Assembly (NCBI RefSeq): GCF_008271465.1
Contig: NZ_VMDU01000005.1
Location: 186,001-250,000, forward strand
DNA: 64,000 bases
Direction: 5' to 3'
Source of the DNA: Tabrizicola flagellatus
GTDB lineage: Bacteria > Pseudomonadota > Alphaproteobacteria > Rhodobacterales > Rhodobacteraceae
The position numbers and the translations under genes were made by a program. A model generated the notes under the pieces. It saw nothing but the letters and a program-made list of their open reading frames with translations. It was not told the origin of the DNA and ran no database searches. This document shows, piece by piece, positions 17,363 to 54,820 of this stretch (within the stretch, counting starts at the first letter, position 1; the number at the start of each line of letters is the position of its first letter).

Positions 17363-18301
17363 TCATCCGGTTTCGCGTTGGCCCCGGCCATAGATCAGCA
17401 GCATGGCGATGATGACCACGCCATAGATGATCTGCCGCAGCGCCTCGGGCATCTGCATGATCGACAGGACGGAGTTCAAGAGCACGATCAGGATCACCCC
17501 GATCAGCGTGCCGGCATAGCGCCCGGACCCGCCCAGCACATTGGTCCCGCCCAGTACCACGGCGGCGATGGCGGGCAGGAGGTAGGCGTTGCCCATCCCC
17601 TGATAGGCCTTGGCGGAATAGCCCGCCAGCAGCACCCCCGCCAGCGCCGCACACAGCGACGAGGCGACGAAGGCTCCGATGATGACCGGCCGGATGCGGA
17701 TGCCCGACAGGTAGGCCGCCCGCTCGCGCGTGCCGATGGCGTAAAGCGCCCGGCCGAAGGTGGTCCGGGCCAGCAGGAAGGCGATCAGGATCGACACGCC
17801 GGCCCAGGCATACAGCGCCAGCGGGATGCCGAGGAAACGGCCCTTGGCCAGCGTCAACATCAGCGGTGTCGCCTGATCCTGCGGGGCGAAGCCCCCGGTC
17901 TGCGCGACCGTGACGCCGCGCAGCACGGTGTCCATCCCCAGGGTGAAGATCATCGAGGGCACGCGCAGCACCGCCGTCCCCGCCCCATTGACCAGCCCGA
18001 CCGCCAGCCCGAAGGCCAGCGCCGCCGGAATGGCCCAGGGCCCGCCGACCGCCGTCGCGATCATCGCCGCCCCGGTCAGCGTGGCCGGGATCGACAGGTC
18101 GATGTGGCCGGTCAGGATCACCAGCATCAGCCCCGCCGCGCAGATGCCCAGGAACGACCCGATCTGCAGCTGTTGCAAGAGGTAGGTCGGCTGCAACAAC
18201 GGCATCGTGCCCGAGGTGCTCAGCATGTAGCCCGTGCCGATCAGAAGGATCACCAGCGTGAACCCGGCAGCGATGACCAGCGGCTTGTCCTCGGTCTTCA
18301 T
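17363..18301 (-). CDS. sugar ABC transporter permease (second)
   Basis: A 312-residue permease of the RbsC/XylH type with eight to ten membrane helices. Typical blocks are LMLVILTGHIDLSIPATLTGAAM, TLGMDTVLRGV and LPAIAAVVLGGTNVLGGSGR (EAA-like coupling region). ATG 18301 is chosen because it overlaps the upstream permease gene by 4 nt; the frame is open further back but only as a shadow of that gene. It presumably forms a heterodimeric channel with the neighbouring permease. Confidence 0.9.
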   Translation of the reverse strand: MKTEDKPLVIAAGFTLVILLIGTGYMLSTSGTMPLLQPTYLLQQLQIGSFLGICAAGLMLVILTGHIDLSIPATLTGAAMIATAVGGPWAIPAALAFGLAVGLVNGAGTAVLRVPSMIFTLGMDTVLRGVTVAQTGGFAPQDQATPLMLTLAKGRFLGIPLALYAWAGVSILIAFLLARTTFGRALYAIGTRERAAYLSGIRIRPVIIGAFVASSLCAALAGVLLAGYSAKAYQGMGNAYLLPAIAAVVLGGTNVLGGSGRYAGTLIGVILIVLLNSVLSIMQMPEALRQIIYGVVIIAMLLIYGRGQRETG

Positions 18302-19332
18302 CGGAACAGCTCCAGCCGGTTCTTCACCGCGAAGGTCCGCCAGGCCCCGGCGCTGACGGCAAGCAGCAGCACCAGCCCCTCGATCAGCGGCTGCAACAGC
18401 GGCTCGATATCCAGGATGCGGAAATAGAACGAGATCACCCGCAGGATCAGCGCCCCGATGATGGAGGCAATGGCCCCCCCGATCCCGCCCGCCAGCGCCG
18501 TCCCGCCCAGCACCACGGCGGCGATGGAGTTCAGCGTATAGGCCCCCGCCTGCACCGTGTCGGCATTGCCGGTCGAGGTCTGCAAGGCGAGGTAAAGCCC
18601 CGCGCAGGCCGAAAAGAACCCGGCCAGCGTGAAGGCAGCGAGTTTCGCCCGGTTGATCGGCAGGCCCGAGACATAGGCCGCCCCCTCGGCCGACCCGATG
18701 GCATAGACCGTGCGGCCGGTGACCGTGCGCTTGAAGGGCAGCCAGACCAGCAGGGCCACGCCGAACAGCAGGACCAGCGGCATCGGGATATCGGCGAAGG
18801 GCCGGATCCACCAGGCCTCGCCGCCGCCCGCGATCCCGTAGGTATCGGCCAGGTCCCAGACCGTGTTGGTCATCGCCCAGCTGAGGTCGCCATCCACATT
18901 CCCCCCCGGCTGCGGCCGCAGAATGAGTGCAAGACCGATGGCGATGGCCCCCGTCGCCAGCGTTGCGATGATCGGTTGCAGGCGGCCATGGACTACGATC
19001 AGCCCGTTCATCAGGCCAAAGGCGGTGCCCGTGGCCAGCACGGCAAGGATGCCCATCGAAATCTCCAGCCCCGATCCGGTCAGGAGGTAGGACGCCACGC
19101 AGGCCGACAGCGTCATCACCGCGCCGACCGACAGGTCGAGGCCGCGCATCAGCACCGGCACGGTCTGGGCCATGGCGACGAAGGCGATGGCCACGGCCTC
19201 GTTGGCGTTCTGCACGAAGACCGCGCTGGAAAAGCCGCGCGGATGCAGAAGGTTGTAGGTGACGAACAGCGCCGCGAACAGCGCCAGCGCCCCGGCGAAG
19301 GCCCGGTTCTGCGCGATCAGCCGGCCCATCAT
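18298..19332 (-). CDS. sugar ABC transporter permease (first)
   Basis: A 344-residue branched-chain/ribose-type permease. MAQTVPVLMRGLDLSVGAVMTLSACV and NSIAAVVLGGTALAGGIGGA are the family hallmarks. It overlaps both neighbours by 4 nt (ATPase upstream, second permease downstream), which implies tight translational coupling and equal stoichiometry. Together with the binding protein and ATPase it imports the sugar or sugar acid processed by the two downstream enzymes. Confidence 0.9.
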   Translation of the reverse strand: MMGRLIAQNRAFAGALALFAALFVTYNLLHPRGFSSAVFVQNANEAVAIAFVAMAQTVPVLMRGLDLSVGAVMTLSACVASYLLTGSGLEISMGILAVLATGTAFGLMNGLIVVHGRLQPIIATLATGAIAIGLALILRPQPGGNVDGDLSWAMTNTVWDLADTYGIAGGGEAWWIRPFADIPMPLVLLFGVALLVWLPFKRTVTGRTVYAIGSAEGAAYVSGLPINRAKLAAFTLAGFFSACAGLYLALQTSTGNADTVQAGAYTLNSIAAVVLGGTALAGGIGGAIASIIGALILRVISFYFRILDIEPLLQPLIEGLVLLLAVSAGAWRTFAVKNRLELFR

Positions 19333-34827: not shown

Positions 34828-35730
34828 CTACCGGACAAACACCCTGCTCGGGTGCAACTCGCCCCCCCGATAGTGCCCCACAGCGACCGCCAGGCCGTTC
34901 AGAGAGGCCCAGCCCTCGGTCCCCCAGTCGGCGTGCCCGATCACCTGCCCCGGATTGCCGTTCCGCAGCCGCACCGCGCCCTCCGGGGTCGCCCGGAACT
35001 CCGGCAGGTCCTGCAACCCCAACTCCAGCGGCAACAGCCGGGCGTCCAGCGCATCGGTCTTGGCCTCGGCGTCGATCACCTCCAGCGAGACGCCCTGACC
35101 TGCTTCGAACGGCCCCGACCACTCCCGCCGCAGCCATTCGACATGCCCGAGGCACCCCAGCACCTGCCCAAGATCGCGCGCGATCGACCGCACATAGCCG
35201 CCCTTGCCGCAGACCATCTCCAGATCGACATGGTCCGCGTCGGGGCGGCCCAGCATGACCAGCCGCTCCACCCAGAGGGGCCGGGCGGCAAGGTCCATCA
35301 CCTCACCCTCGCGCGCCAGGTCATAGGCCCGCTCGCCATCCACCTTCACCGCCGAATACTGCGGCGGAACCTGGAGGATCTCCCCCCGGAACGCCCCCAG
35401 CGCCGCCTCGATCTGCGCGTCCGTCGGCCGCAGTGTCGAGGTCGCGATCACGCGACCCGAGGCATCGTCCGTCTCCGTCGCCGCGCCCAGCACCACCCGG
35501 AACCGGTAGCACTTCAGCGCATCGGTGATGTAGGGGATCGTCTTGGTCGCCTCCCCCAGCGCCACGGCCAGCACGCCCGTCGCATCCGGGTCCAGAGTCC
35601 CGGCATGGCCCGCCTTCTGCGCCGACAACGCCCATTTGACCTTGTTGACCACGGCGGTCGAGGTCACGCCCGCCGGCTTGTCCACGACCAGCCAGCCGCT
35701 GATCTCCCGCCCCTTGCGCGTGCGGCCCAT
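34828..35730 (-). CDS. truB: tRNA pseudouridine-55 synthase
   Basis: A 300-residue Tru[14 protein letters not shown] opens the catalytic domain and the invariant Asp47 sits in [35 protein letters not shown] and [12 protein letters not shown] are also family-specific. It makes pseudouridine at position 55 of tRNA. It is the last gene of the rbfA-glycosidase-truB unit, starting 3 nt after its neighbour's stop. Confidence 0.95.
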
Positions 35731-35733
35731 CGC

Positions 35734-36456
35734 TCAGCCCTTCGCGACCACGGTGCCGACGATCGGTCCCATCGGGAACCCGCCGTCATGCCGCCCCAGC
35801 GAGGGGGCATAGAGCCGCGAGATGTTGCCGTCGAAATACAGCGCATCCGGCAGGCCCAGCCCGTCGCGGAAGAACCGCGCGAAGGTGTGGAAGTTCACCG
35901 CCTCGTTCGAGATCACGAACACCGCCCGGCTGCCGTCCTCGCTGACGCCCACGCCGTTGCGTACATAGCGGCTGTCACTGCCGGGTAGCAGTTTCGGATG
36001 CAGCTTGCCCTTGATCACCAGCATCGGCCCCGATTGCGTGGCGTGGCGACACGCAGTCTTAGCCTTCTTGAAGGCGCGGCTCTCGATCACCCGGAAGGTC
36101 TCGCCGATGCAGAACACACCGTTCGGCAGAAGGCCGAAGTTTCCCGGCCCGTCGCTGGTCACGATGGCCGAGCGTTCCACCCCGTCCTCGACATAGAGAC
36201 CCACCGGCGACAGGTCGCGGTGGTACATCCCGGCGTTCATCGCGAAGCCCAGCGCCTTGCCCTCGGCCGCCAGCGCCAGATCGACGTTGCGGAAACTGCC
36301 GTAGGCGCCGTCCGGCCCGGAATGGAACAGCCGCAGGTCCTCGTCCGCTCCGACCTCGCAGACCGTGTAGGAGGCGCCCTCGAAGCTGGTGTCCCGGCAA
36401 TCTGCCGCCTCTGCCGCCACCGGGGCCAGCAGAAGGGCCAGGGCAAGCCACTTCAT
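35734..36456 (-). CDS. secreted phosphodiester glycosidase (NAGPA-like) family protein
   Basis: A 240-residue periplasmic protein. ATG 36456 overlaps the rbfA stop by 4 nt and begins a signal peptide ([18 protein letters not shown]). The family motifs are [22 protein letters not shown] and LYFDGNIS, as in the catalytic domain of the mammalian uncovering enzyme and bacterial DUF2233 proteins. Bacterial substrates are unknown but are thought to be sugar phosphodiesters of the envelope. Its place between two RNA-related genes is odd. Confidence 0.83.
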
Positions 36457-49892: not shown

Positions 49893-51272
49893 TTGCCGCA
49901 CGAAACGCCCCTGATCACCATGCTTGTCGCCGGCTTCGGGCTGGCCTTCCTGTTTGGCCTGATGGCCCAGCGGCTGAAGCTGCCGCTGATCGCGGGCTAC
50001 CTGCTTGCGGGAGTGGTGATCGGCCCCTTCACCCCCGGCTTCGTCGCCGATACCGACCTTGCGGGCGAGTTGGCCGAGCTTGGCGTCATTCTCTTGATGT
50101 TCGGGGTCGGCCTGCATTTCTCGCCCCGCGACCTGATGGCGGTGAAGGGCATCGCGCTGCCCGGCGCGCTGGGCCAGATCGCGGTGGCGACGCTCGCCGG
50201 TACCGGGGTCGGCTGGGCGATGGGGTGGAGCCTCGGGGCCGGGCTGATCTTCGGCATCGCGCTGTCGGTCGCCTCGACCGTCGTCCTGCTGCGCGCGTTG
50301 CAGGACCGCGAACTGATCCAGACCGACAAGGGCCGCGTCGCCGTGGGCTGGCTGATCGTCGAGGATCTGGTGATGGTGCTGGCGCTGGTGCTGATCCCGC
50401 CGCTGGCGGGCCTCCTGGGCGGGACGGCGATGCCGGTCAGCGAGGATGCCGAGATCGTCGCCGAAGTCACCCAGAACATCGGTATCGGCCCGATCGCGGC
50501 TACAGTACTGATAACATTGGTGAAAGCGGCGGCCTTTGTGGCCCTCATGCTGGTGATCGGCCGCCGGGTCATCCCCTGGATCCTGCATTTCGTGGCCCAT
50601 ACCCTGTCGCGCGAACTGTTCCGGCTGGCGGTCCTCGCCATCGCGCTGGGCGTGGCCTACGGCGCGACGCATTTCTTCGGCGTCTCCTTCGCGCTGGGGG
50701 CTTTCTTCGCCGGGATGGTGATGTCCTCCTCGACCCTGTCGCAGCAGGCCATGCGGGAAACCCTGCCGCTGCGCGATGCCTTCGCGGTGCTGTTCTTCGT
50801 CTCGGTGGGCATGCTGTTCAACCCGGCGATCCTGATGTCGAAACCCCTGGCGCTGCTGGCCACGGTGACGATCATCGTCGGCGTCAAGGCGGCGGCCGGG
50901 TTCTATCTGGTCCGGCTTCTGGGCGAGGGCCGCGACATGGCGCTGACCATCGCGGCAAGTCTCGCCCAGATCGGCGAATTCTCGTTCATCCTGATCACCA
51001 TGGGCGCGAAATTGGACATCGTCCCGCCCGAGGCGCGCGACCTTGTGGTGGCGGGCGCGATCCTGTCGATCCTGGCCAACCCGCTGTTGTTCCACCTGCT
51101 CGACCGGCGCGAGGCGCGCAAGGCGGCGGCTCCTCGTTCGCCTTCGGCTCCTCCTCGCGAGGCGGCGGCGAGGAGTGCCGAAGGCATCGACGAGCCTTCG
51201 GCGGAACCTACACCGGACGCCCCGTCAGAAGGCGCGGAAGCTCGCCCGTCAGCCCCGCCGCTTGCCGGATGA
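49893..51272 (+). CDS. KefB/YbaL-type cation:proton antiporter with repeat-derived tail
   Basis: A 459-residue membrane protein of the CPA2 family with about 12 helices. Landmarks are LKLPLIAGYLLAGVVIGPFTPG, LGVILLMFGVGLHFS, GIALSVASTVVLLRALQDRELI and LAQIGEFSFILI. TTG 49893 gives the family start MPHETPLITMLVAG. No TrkA-N (RCK) domain follows; instead the last 47 residues are a low-complexity Ala/Pro/Glu tail encoded partly by a dispersed repeat. The gene overlaps the convergent UbiH-type gene by 65 bases. It probably exchanges K+ or Na+ for protons. Confidence 0.85.
   Translation: MPHETPLITMLVAGFGLAFLFGLMAQRLKLPLIAGYLLAGVVIGPFTPGFVADTDLAGELAELGVILLMFGVGLHFSPRDLMAVKGIALPGALGQIAVATLAGTGVGWAMGWSLGAGLIFGIALSVASTVVLLRALQDRELIQTDKGRVAVGWLIVEDLVMVLALVLIPPLAGLLGGTAMPVSEDAEIVAEVTQNIGIGPIAATVLITLVKAAAFVALMLVIGRRVIPWILHFVAHTLSRELFRLAVLAIALGVAYGATHFFGVSFALGAFFAGMVMSSSTLSQQAMRETLPLRDAFAVLFFVSVGMLFNPAILMSKPLALLATVTIIVGVKAAAGFYLVRLLGEGRDMALTIAASLAQIGEFSFILITMGAKLDIVPPEARDLVVAGAILSILANPLLFHLLDRREARKAAAPRSPSAPPREAAARSAEGIDEPSAEPTPDAPSEGAEARPSAPPLAG
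51167..51196 (-). repeat. dispersed repeat, family D copy 1 (inside a gene)
   Basis: On the minus strand it begins GGCTCGTCGATGCC and ends CACTCCTCGCC, with a TTCGG centre. A near-identical copy in opposite orientation is at 53849-53880. This copy lies in the antiporter's 3' coding region and encodes part of its unusual tail. Confidence 0.7.
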
Positions 51273-52437
51273 AGCCGCGGCGCAGGCCGGGCAGGGCGCC
51301 TATCACCCCCATCCCGAGGTCGCGCGCCAGGCGCAACAGCGGATTGTCGCTGGAAAACAGCCGGTTGACCCCGTCCATGCCCAGGGCCAGCGCCGTCGCG
51401 TCGAACCGGCGCCAGCGCTGGTATTCCTCCAGCGCGGCGGGGCTGCCCGGGTCCTCGCCCCGGCGGCGGGCGAGGATAAGCACCTCGGCCAGCGCCGCCA
51501 CGTCGCGCAGGCCGAGGTTCAGCCCCTGCCCGGCGATCGGATGCACCCCATGTGCCGCATCGCCGACCAGCGCCACGCGGGGGGCAATGAAGTGTTCGGC
51601 CAGGGACAGCGACAGGGGATAGGTGAAGCGGTCCCCGGCCAGCGCGATCTGCCCCAGGAAATCGCCGAAGCGGGGGCGCAACGCCTCGAGATAGGCGTCA
51701 TCCGGCAGGGCCTGGATCGCGGCGGCGGTGGCGTCGGTCTCGCTCCAGACGATGCTGGAGTGGTGGCCGCCCTTCAGGGGCAGGATCGCCAGCGGACCCG
51801 AGGGCATGAAGAACTGATGCGCGATGCCCTGGTGGTCGCCTTCGTGCCGGATCGCGGTGACAAGCGCGGTCTGGCCATAGCCCCAGCCAACCCGGCGGAT
51901 CCCCGCGCGGGCGGCCACGCCCGAGCCGCGCCCGTCGCAGCCGACCAGCAGTCCCCCCGTCAGCCGGCGCCCCGAGGCGAGCGTCACCGTCACCCCCGCC
52001 GGCCCGGCCTCTTGCGCGACGACGCTTTCGCCCGAGAGTAGCGTCACCCCCGGCGCGGCCTGCATCGCGGCAAGGAAGGCCGCGTAGAGGTGGCGGTCCT
52101 CCAGCATGTGGCCCATCGGGCCTTCCTCGATCTCGGCAGCGTCGAACTGCAGGAAAAAGGGCGCCGCCCCCTCGCCCGGGCGGCCGTCGGAGGCCTTGAT
52201 CTGCAGGATCGGCTGCGCCCGGTCGGCGACCGCAGGCCAGATGCCGATGGCGGTGAGCAGGCGGACCGAGGCGATGGCCAGCGCATAGGCGCGCCCGTCG
52301 AACCCCGCCTCGGCCCGGGCCGGCGCGGGGCGGGCGTCGATCACCGTCACCCGGAAGCCGCCCTGTGCCAGCGCCAGGGCCAGCGCGGTGCCGTTCAGCC
52401 CTCCGCCCGCGATCAGGATGTCGGCGTCCCGTTCCAT
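51208..52437 (-). CDS. UbiH/UbiF/Coq6-family FAD-dependent ubiquinone hydroxylase
   Basis: A 409-residue flavin monooxygenase. The N-terminal ILIAGGGLNGTALALALAQGG binds FAD, and ALVGDAAHGVHPIAGQGLNLGLRDV is the DAAH/GQGxN signature of the UbiH group. These enzymes add one of the ring hydroxyls in ubiquinone synthesis; which position is not predictable, since alphaproteobacterial versions can be broad. Its 3' end overlaps the antiporter gene on the other strand by 65 bases. Confidence 0.9.
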   Translation of the reverse strand: MERDADILIAGGGLNGTALALALAQGGFRVTVIDARPAPARAEAGFDGRAYALAIASVRLLTAIGIWPAVADRAQPILQIKASDGRPGEGAAPFFLQFDAAEIEEGPMGHMLEDRHLYAAFLAAMQAAPGVTLLSGESVVAQEAGPAGVTVTLASGRRLTGGLLVGCDGRGSGVAARAGIRRVGWGYGQTALVTAIRHEGDHQGIAHQFFMPSGPLAILPLKGGHHSSIVWSETDATAAAIQALPDDAYLEALRPRFGDFLGQIALAGDRFTYPLSLSLAEHFIAPRVALVGDAAHGVHPIAGQGLNLGLRDVAALAEVLILARRRGEDPGSPAALEEYQRWRRFDATALALGMDGVNRLFSSDNPLLRLARDLGMGVIGALPGLRRGFIRQAAGLTGELPRLLTGRPV

Positions 52438-52515
52438 GCCCCCCTACATACCCCGCGCCGACGGATTGTCCATGCGTCGCCAAGCCGCTACGGTCGCCGG
52501 AAAACGGGGGATGCC

Positions 52516-53844
52516 ATGACCGGAACCTGGGCGCACATGACCGCAGCCGAACTCGGGCGCGAGATCGACGCGGGTCGCATCCATCCGGTCGAGCTGACCG
52601 AAGCCTTCCTGCACGAGATCGACACGCATCCCCTCGCCGCCCGGATCTATGCCCGTGCCACGCCGGCCCGGGCGCGGGGCGAGGCGATGGCCGCCGCCGC
52701 CCGCGCCAAGGCGGGCCTGCGCCGGGGGCCGCTCGACGGGGTGCCGCTCAGCTGGAAGGACAATTTCGACACGGCGGGCGTGGCGACCGAGGCGGGGTCG
52801 GCGCTCTTGAAGGGCCGGGTGCCCGAGCGGGATGCGGCGGTGCTGGCGACAGTGACTCTGAACGGGCTGGTGTGCCTCGGCAAGACGCACATGTCGGAAC
52901 TGGCCTTTTCCGGGCTGGGCCTGAACCCGGTAACGGCGACGCCGCCCTGCCTGAACGACGACCGCGCGGTGCCTGGGGGGTCGTCCTCGGGCGCGGCGGC
53001 CTCGGTGGCCTTCGGGCTGGCGCCGGCGGCCATCGGGTCGGACACCGGCGGTTCGGTGCGGATCCCGGCGGCCTGGAACGACCTGGTGGGGCTGAAGACC
53101 GCGCTCGGCAGCCTGCCGACCGAAGGGGTGGTGCCGCTCTGCGAACGCTTCGACACGATCGGGCCGCTGGCCCATTCGGTCTAGGACTGCGCCCTCCTGC
53201 TCGAGGCCATGGGCGGGGCGCGGACCGACCTGGGTGGTGCGACGCTGGCCGGAATGCGGCTGGCGGTGCTGGAGACCGTCGCGCTGGACGACATGCGCGC
53301 GCGGCCGGCGCAGGGTTTCGAGGATGCGGTGGCGCGGCTGGCGCGGGCCGGGGCGCGGATCGAGCGATTCGCCCTGGCCGAAGTGGCCGAGGCGATGGGT
53401 CTGGCCGGGGTTCTGTTCACCCCCGAAGCCTATGCCATCTGGCGCGAGACGATCGAGCGCGCGCCCGAGAAGATGTTTCCGCGCATCCTCGAACGTTTCC
53501 GCTCGGGTGCCGGGGTTCCGGCCACGGACTACATCGCTGCCTGGCGCCGGCTGGAGGAGATCCGGTGGGTCTGGTCCGACCGGGTGGCCGAGTTCGATGC
53601 GGTGCTCTTGCCCTCTTCGCCGATCCTGCCGCCGGATGCGAACCGGCTGATGACCGACGACGCCTATTATGTGACCGAGAACCTCTTGGCGCTGCGCAAC
53701 ACCCGGATCGGCAACCTGATGGGAGGCTGCGCGCTGAGCCTGCCGACCTCTCAGCCCTCTTGCGGTATCGGCCTCATGGCCGGGCCGGGGCAGGAGGCGC
53801 GGCTGTTGCGGCTGGGTGCTGCGGCGGAACGGGCGCTCTTGTAG
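52516..53844 (+). pseudogene. amidase gene interrupted by an in-frame amber codon
   Basis: A 443-codon frame for an amidase-signature enzyme, broken only by TAG at codon 223 (53182-53184). All catalytic residues precede it: Lys81 in SWKDNFDT, cis-Ser in PGGSSSG (154-159) and nucleophile Ser180 in GSDTGGSVRIPA. The reading resumes in the same frame as DCALLLEAMGG. The family consensus is SVEDCALL, so one G-to-T change (GAG to TAG) explains the break. The 220-residue downstream part shows no decay (LPSSPILPPDANRLM, NLMGGCALSLP). The lesion is recent, a sequencing error, or read through. Start ATG 52516. Confidence 0.85.
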
Positions 53845-53924: not shown

Positions 53925-54395
53925 TCAGACCCGGTGATAGGGCGAACCCGCAAGGATGGTCGCGGCGCGGTAGAGCTGTTCGGCCAGCATGACCCGGACC
54001 AGCATGTGCGGCCAGACCATGCGGCCGAAGCTGAGCACCAGGTCGGCCCGGGCGCGCAGTGCCGGGTCCACCCCGTCCGCCCCGCCGATCACGAAGGCCG
54101 CATCCTGTCGCCCCCCGTCGCGCCAGCCGGCAAGCTGCGCGGCGAACTCGGGGCTGGTGAGGAGCTTGCCCCGTTCGTCCAGCACGCAGAGCGCCGCACC
54201 CTCGGGAATCGCGCGCGCGAGCAGCGCGCCCTCGGCCGCCATGCCGCCGCCCTTGCGGTCCTCGACCTCGTGCTCGGCCACCGGGCCGAGGCCGAGGGGC
54301 CGCCCGCTGCGGTCGAGCCTTTGCAGGTAGTCGTCCACCAGATCGCGCTCTGCCCCCGCCCGCAGGCGGCCGACGGCGCAGAGGTGCAGCCGCAT
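53925..54395 (-). CDS. rlmH: 23S rRNA pseudouridine-1915 N3-methyltransferase
   Basis: A 156-residue SPOUT methyltransferase: MRLHLCAVGRLRAGAERDLV at the start and AAFVIGGADGVDPALRARADL, then GRMVWPHMLVRVMLAEQLYRA and the terminal PYH. The knot region binding AdoMet is complete. It methylates the pseudouridine at 1915 on assembled ribosomes. ATG 54395 shares one base with the rsfS stop (TGATG), the usual rsfS-rlmH coupling. Confidence 0.95.
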   Translation of the reverse strand: MRLHLCAVGRLRAGAERDLVDDYLQRLDRSGRPLGLGPVAEHEVEDRKGGGMAAEGALLARAIPEGAALCVLDERGKLLTSPEFAAQLAGWRDGGRQDAAFVIGGADGVDPALRARADLVLSFGRMVWPHMLVRVMLAEQLYRAATILAGSPYHRV

Positions 54396-54820
54396 CAGGC
54401 CTTGGCCGCGCGGGCCGCGCCCGCCCCCATGGGCAGCCACATCTTTTCCAGCTGGTAGAAGTCGCGCACTTCCGGGCGGAAGACATGGACGATCACGTCG
54501 CCCGCGTCGATCAGCACCCAGTCGCCGGTTTCCTTCCCCTCCATGCGGACGGAAATCCGCATCTCCTGCTTCAGCCGGTCGGCAAGCTTTTCCGAGATCG
54601 AGGCGACCTGGCGCGACGACCGGCCCGAGCAGATCACCATGTAGTCGGCCACGTCCGACCGGCCGCGCAGGTCGATCTGCACGATGTCCTCGGCCTTGTC
54701 GTCATCGACGGATTTCAGCACCAGGGCCAGGACATCCTCGGACGCATGGTCCTGCTGGGCATCGGCGGGTTTCAGACGCGGACCGACCGGCAGGCCGGTG
54801 GCGGGATCAGAATGCGACAG
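54395..54820 (-). CDS. rsfS: ribosomal silencing factor RsfS, probable CUG start
   Basis: A RsfS/Iojap protein: LALVLKSVDDDKAEDIVQIDLRG cut by this reading into helix 1, then DYMVICSGRSSRQVASI and WVLIDAGDVIVHVF. No ATG, GTG or TTG lies in a sensible place. CTG at 54820 has GGAGGA (54833-54828) seven bases upstream and gives a 141-residue protein with a 30-residue polar lead. The first GTG (54721) would cut into helix 1. A distant start at 55141 would add a non-native stretch. RsfS blocks subunit joining by binding L14. Confidence 0.85.
   Translation of the reverse strand: MSHSDPATGLPVGPRLKPADAQQDHASEDVLALVLKSVDDDKAEDIVQIDLRGRSDVADYMVICSGRSSRQVASISEKLADRLKQEMRISVRMEGKETGDWVLIDAGDVIVHVFRPEVRDFYQLEKMWLPMGAGAARAAKA

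Follow-up and report, generated by a model that had tools for sequence, protein, structure and literature searches.

In-frame stop codons in genes that appear to be under constraint have already been described in bacteria and, in the portion of PMC7918605 drawn on here, such stops tended toward short evolutionary persistence, while the large-scale part of that work considered only stops common to two or more species, to avoid artefacts. The in-frame TAG that we report from Tabrizicola flagellatus resembles the stops described in that portion in that the part of the gene downstream of it looks constrained, but differs in that theirs occur in at least two species and this one occurs in one genome only. 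The other closely comparable system is the nonsense pseudogene with a single stop, with which the T. flagellatus gene shares its one stop, its intact frame, and orthologues without a stop in its relatives. Set against that system, nothing in the T. flagellatus amidase is unusual, and the base is read from the assembly sequence. A single-genome stop in an amidase is thus an ordinary, already-known kind of finding, and a literature search on Tabrizicola amidase pseudogenes found no paper.

The window analysed here, a stretch of 64,000 nucleotides, covers positions 186001-250000 of contig C5 within a genome of 3.6 Mb. Reading the DNA directly places the TAG at 53182-53184 in frame with an ATG at 52516, and 219 sense codons follow it before a second TAG (53842-53844) ends the gene (Table 1). 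The G+C content at codon positions 1, 2, and 3 is 0.716, 0.579, and 0.905 before the stop and 0.726, 0.532, and 0.867 after it, i.e., coding composition persists beyond the stop. The gene carries this single lesion without a frameshift or further stop, the pattern of a recent nonsense pseudogene, and the DNA, together with the undamaged run to the normal end, bears out an earlier sequence-only reading that had singled out codon 223 as TAG in an otherwise intact amidase frame.

Table 1. Features of the amidase locus, in window coordinates.
Feature	Position	Strand	Basis
Ubiquinone biosynthesis hydroxylase (UbiH/UbiF/VisC/COQ6 family), divergent neighbour, open	51208..52437	-	
Amidase-signature gene (PF01425), 442 codons and a TAG terminator, with a stop at codon 223	52516..53844	+	ORF and profile match
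N-terminal half, 222 residues, with presumed catalytic K81, S156, and S180	52516..53181	+	ORF; residue roles from the family
In-frame TAG, codon 223, private to the T. flagellatus genome	53182..53184	+	Sequence and orthologue comparison
C-terminal half, 219 residues, in an unbroken frame and no more decayed than the N-terminal half	53185..53841	+	Codon comparison, trees
ATG, codon 232, potential restart in principle	53209..53211	+	Met in only 3 of 28 genus sequences
Normal gene terminator, also TAG	53842..53844	+	TAG in 25 of 29 genus orthologue loci
23S rRNA methyltransferase RlmH, convergent neighbour, open	53925..54440	-	

The amidase lies between genes for UbiH and RlmH, with rsfS next after rlmH. 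An ubiH gene without a stop adjoins the amidase in 26 of the 26 genus loci tested, so the genus amidases are orthologues in place. Elsewhere in the window, two adjacent stretches at 17366-19293 (- strand) match one open reading frame (ORF) of the relative G004 at about 29% identity, which suggests, from sequence similarity, a tandem pair of related genes.

With the stop read as X, the full frame matches the PF01425 Amidase profile in one stretch over residues 26-431 (244 bits against a cut-off of 27, E 4.3e-72), and the closest PDB sequence is 2dc0, a 'probable amidase' (E 9.6e-38). The best NCBIfam match is NF005460 (PRK07056, amidase; residues 9-441), at 368.3 bits against a cut-off of 447, and because this score lies below the cut-off the precise amidase subfamily or substrate cannot be named. 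In further likeness to the family, the protein has K81, S156, and S180, which we take to be the Lys - cis-Ser - Ser triad in the glycine/serine-rich region of the amidase signature family and which are identical in 28 of 28 genus sequences. All three precede codon 223, in agreement with the earlier claim that the whole set lies upstream of the stop. Where the T. flagellatus copy departs from the family is that it stops at codon 223 and only its first half would be made, a 222-residue fragment that presumably has no activity. Two residues past the presumed catalytic Lys81 and close to the active site, residue 83 (52762-52764) is Asn here and Leu in all 27 other genus sequences, a private change before the stop. 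Five other PF01425 matches are present in the T. flagellatus genome. One (L006, G000:C24:106-255) is a fragment of 50 positions from another PF01425 amidase, and as it sits close to where a contig starts, that amidase gene may be cut by the assembly.

The amidase gene was found in 32 of 32 genus genomes searched, T. flagellatus included, and an internal stop was present in T. flagellatus alone, being absent from all 31 other genus genomes, a few of which hold only part of the amidase, at contig ends; in G007 the gene is in two pieces on two contigs. At the family level, 187 of 198 genomes (own genome included) gave an amidase match at E<=1e-60, and among the matches listed no other amidase with a stop was seen. 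The codon-223 site itself was compared in 108 distinct orthologues (the best-scoring 137 loci minus 29 duplicates, a set in which distant orthologues are under-represented), and encodes Glu in 106 of them (84 GAG, 22 GAA); of the other two, one has Thr and one Ala, and none of the 108 has a stop. Judged from these sequences, the site prefers Glu but tolerates change. Within the genus, 23 of 27 sequences have GAG and four have GAA. These counts agree with the earlier proposals that the consensus at this site is Glu and that its usual codon is a single base away from TAG. In length, 26 of the 27 aligned genus orthologues are within one residue of the T. flagellatus amidase, while that of L036 shows a 31-column gap in the alignment; named relatives in the search results include Tabrizicola soli, T. 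aquatica, and T. thermarum.

Decay behind the stop was assessed by codon comparison among 28 genus sequences, T. flagellatus included (2 of 29 genus loci were dropped for coverage), and by trees of 27 sequences, from which the gapped L036 was left out. The ratio of non-synonymous difference after the stop to that before it was 1.75, the third lowest of 28. Private changes at otherwise invariant sites numbered 2 of 145 before the stop and 2 of 75 after it, which is within the spread of the other 27 sequences (0-2 before, 0-6 after). On a fixed amidase tree (FastTree), the ratio of C-terminal to N-terminal terminal branches was 1.6, the fourth lowest of 27, and on the UbiH tree this ratio ranked 20th of 27 from the top. 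By these comparisons, the C-terminal half is not decaying relative to the N-terminal half. An old pseudogene is rejected on this ground, and the further frameshifts in relatives by which the earlier reading would have recognised one were not seen, nor was any internal stop in the 31 other genus genomes. Since a short time without selection would leave no mark in them, the decay tests indicate that the stop is young or unreal, and not which of the two.

The absolute distances point in the opposite direction. Among 27 sequences, the terminal branch of T. flagellatus was the longest in the N-terminal half and the third longest in the C-terminal half, and its mean distance ranked 2nd for the N-terminal half, 5th for the C-terminal half, and 11th for UbiH. 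Scaled to UbiH, the N- and C-terminal halves ranked 6th and 13th of 27 on the amidase tree and 4th and 9th on the UbiH tree. Set beside L008, to which it is closest by UbiH, T. flagellatus departs from the consensus of the remaining sequences 9 times against 3 in the C-terminal half, 6 against 5 in the N-terminal half, and 11 against 2 in UbiH. The T. flagellatus lineage thus appears somewhat divergent, both in the amidase and in the adjoining UbiH, and the C-terminal half is not singled out; the divergence of the amidase could mean a weak constraint that predates the stop, or a generally divergent lineage. As a separate observation, the nearest relative across 51208-53844 differs by gene, being L008 by UbiH and L009 and L010 by the amidase, a disagreement for which recombination or uneven rates are possible sources.

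We consider it probable, from the sequence comparisons, that the stop arose by a recent nonsense mutation and that the amidase gene it hit, although conserved, is probably dispensable. A single-base nonsense mutation would have switched off an amidase-signature gene in one strain or species: translation would end after residue 222, and the fragment would keep the presumed Lys-Ser-Ser residues without half of the protein and would probably be inactive and degraded. Three parts of this reading are inferred: the base is taken to be real, the fragment to be dead, and loss of the gene to be tolerated. On the last part, the wide retention of the gene (187 of 198 family genomes) argues for some cost of loss and counts against dispensability, and redundancy through a duplicate gene is rejected, as the T. 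flagellatus genome has no second amidase match at 1e-60. A stop that occurs in one genome only, and behind which the gene has not decayed, is either very young or absent from the cell's DNA, and to favour the mutation over a base error is a judgement. The three options of the sequence-only reading fared unevenly: a recent loss and a sequencing error both fit what was found, and reading TAG through is disfavoured.

A base error in the public assembly, with the cell's own amidase intact, is the less likely of the two options that fit, yet it is a possibility of some weight. Such an error would produce a singleton stop one base from the usual genus codon, with a half behind the stop that has not decayed relative to the half before it, and all of this is observed. 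Against it, the sequence does not look error-rich: wherever ORFs of relatives aligned to the window at >=70% identity, the amidase stop was the only one found in the middle of a gene. The assembly, of 42 contigs, is rated at 100% completeness and 0.07% contamination. Neither assembly quality nor the absence of other stops bears on a single base, however. As background, ORFs of relatives were aligned to the window (>=70% identity over >=60% of the relative's ORF), giving 90 alignments. A window stop falls within 15 of them: five, each from a different relative, involve the amidase, and in the remaining 10 the stops fall at 2-21% of the alignment, upstream of the window ORF start. One of the amidase alignments, that of a long G003 ORF, contains another stop, which lies at 32% and before the amidase start. 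A looser comparison gave more window stops (e.g., 34852-36165), which we read as ORFs antisense to genes.

Read-through, in which UAG would be read as an amino acid by a suppressor tRNA, by recoding, or by leaky termination to give a full-length amidase, is very improbable. The frame and its constraint are intact after the stop, and bacterial genes that are interrupted by stops yet evolve under purifying selection have been described (PMC7918605, in the portion drawn on here); that portion, however, concerns stops common to at least two species, and here the stop occurs in 0 of the 108 distinct orthologues from the best-scoring loci. TAG is also, as far as can be tested, an ordinary stop in T. 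flagellatus. First, the genome encodes release factor 1 (prfA; 484.9 bits against a cut-off of 423.25, without an internal stop). Second, an RF00005 search gave 41 tRNAs, for which ARAGORN gave 39 distinct sequences, and among these 39 no anticodon CUA, UCA, or UUA was found, in a list that is incomplete, Ile(GAT) and Ala(TGC) being missing from it. ARAGORN also places a tRNA-Tyr(GTA) in T. flagellatus (G000:C4:27786, L217) and in G004 (G004:C1:3427462, L220), and this tRNA likewise does not carry CUA; the RF00005 search lists nothing at either position and so misses tRNA-Tyr. A CUA tRNA pattern whose form fits 39 of the 39 tRNAs had one match in the genome, a tRNA-Arg(TCT) read out of register. 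Third, the PylS model reached only 32.8 bits against a cut-off of 178.15, and 13 of 14 control genomes also match it, only one of them over the cut-off. Within the 64-kb window, no Rfam family was found at gathering score and no tRNA was found.

Local usage of TAG points the same way. The amidase itself terminates at a TAG, as do 25 of 29 genus loci, and were TAG decoded as sense the gene would extend 30 codons beyond that terminator. A simple coding-composition caller gave 62 window ORFs, ending in TGA (43), TAG (17, the amidase C-terminal half counted among them), or TAA (2). Thirteen of the 17 TAG-ended ORFs could be aligned to relatives: for nine, one or more relatives terminate with TGA or TAA no more than two residues away, and for the remaining four, the amidase included, the relatives have TAG too. 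Recoding of TAG is therefore rejected on release factor 1, the tRNA set, PylS, the TAG-ended neighbours, and the amidase's own terminator, and the option of the sequence-only reading that the cell reads TAG through is disfavoured on much the same points. There is equally little reason to expect that UAG read-through at codon 223 yields some full-length amidase and that the stop serves as a strain-specific throttle on its expression. The least likely account of all, a split pair in which the stop closes the N-terminal half, translation begins anew from the ATG at 53209, and the halves assemble into an enzyme, has in its favour that this ATG, 24 bases past the stop, opens a 211-codon frame to the normal end, but the restart is unsupported by conservation, since just three of the 28 genus sequences, T. 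flagellatus among them, have Met at codon 232 (Leu in 23, Ile in 2), which is thus not a kept start, and an internal stop occurs in 0 of the 31 other genus genomes.

Together, these comparisons carry a caution for reading bacterial genomes, in that a lone in-frame TAG should not count as a sign of recoding, the same genome here using TAG as an everyday stop. If the stop is real, the recent nonsense mutation that we favour would offer a snapshot of a gene just inactivated in T. flagellatus and otherwise kept across the genus.
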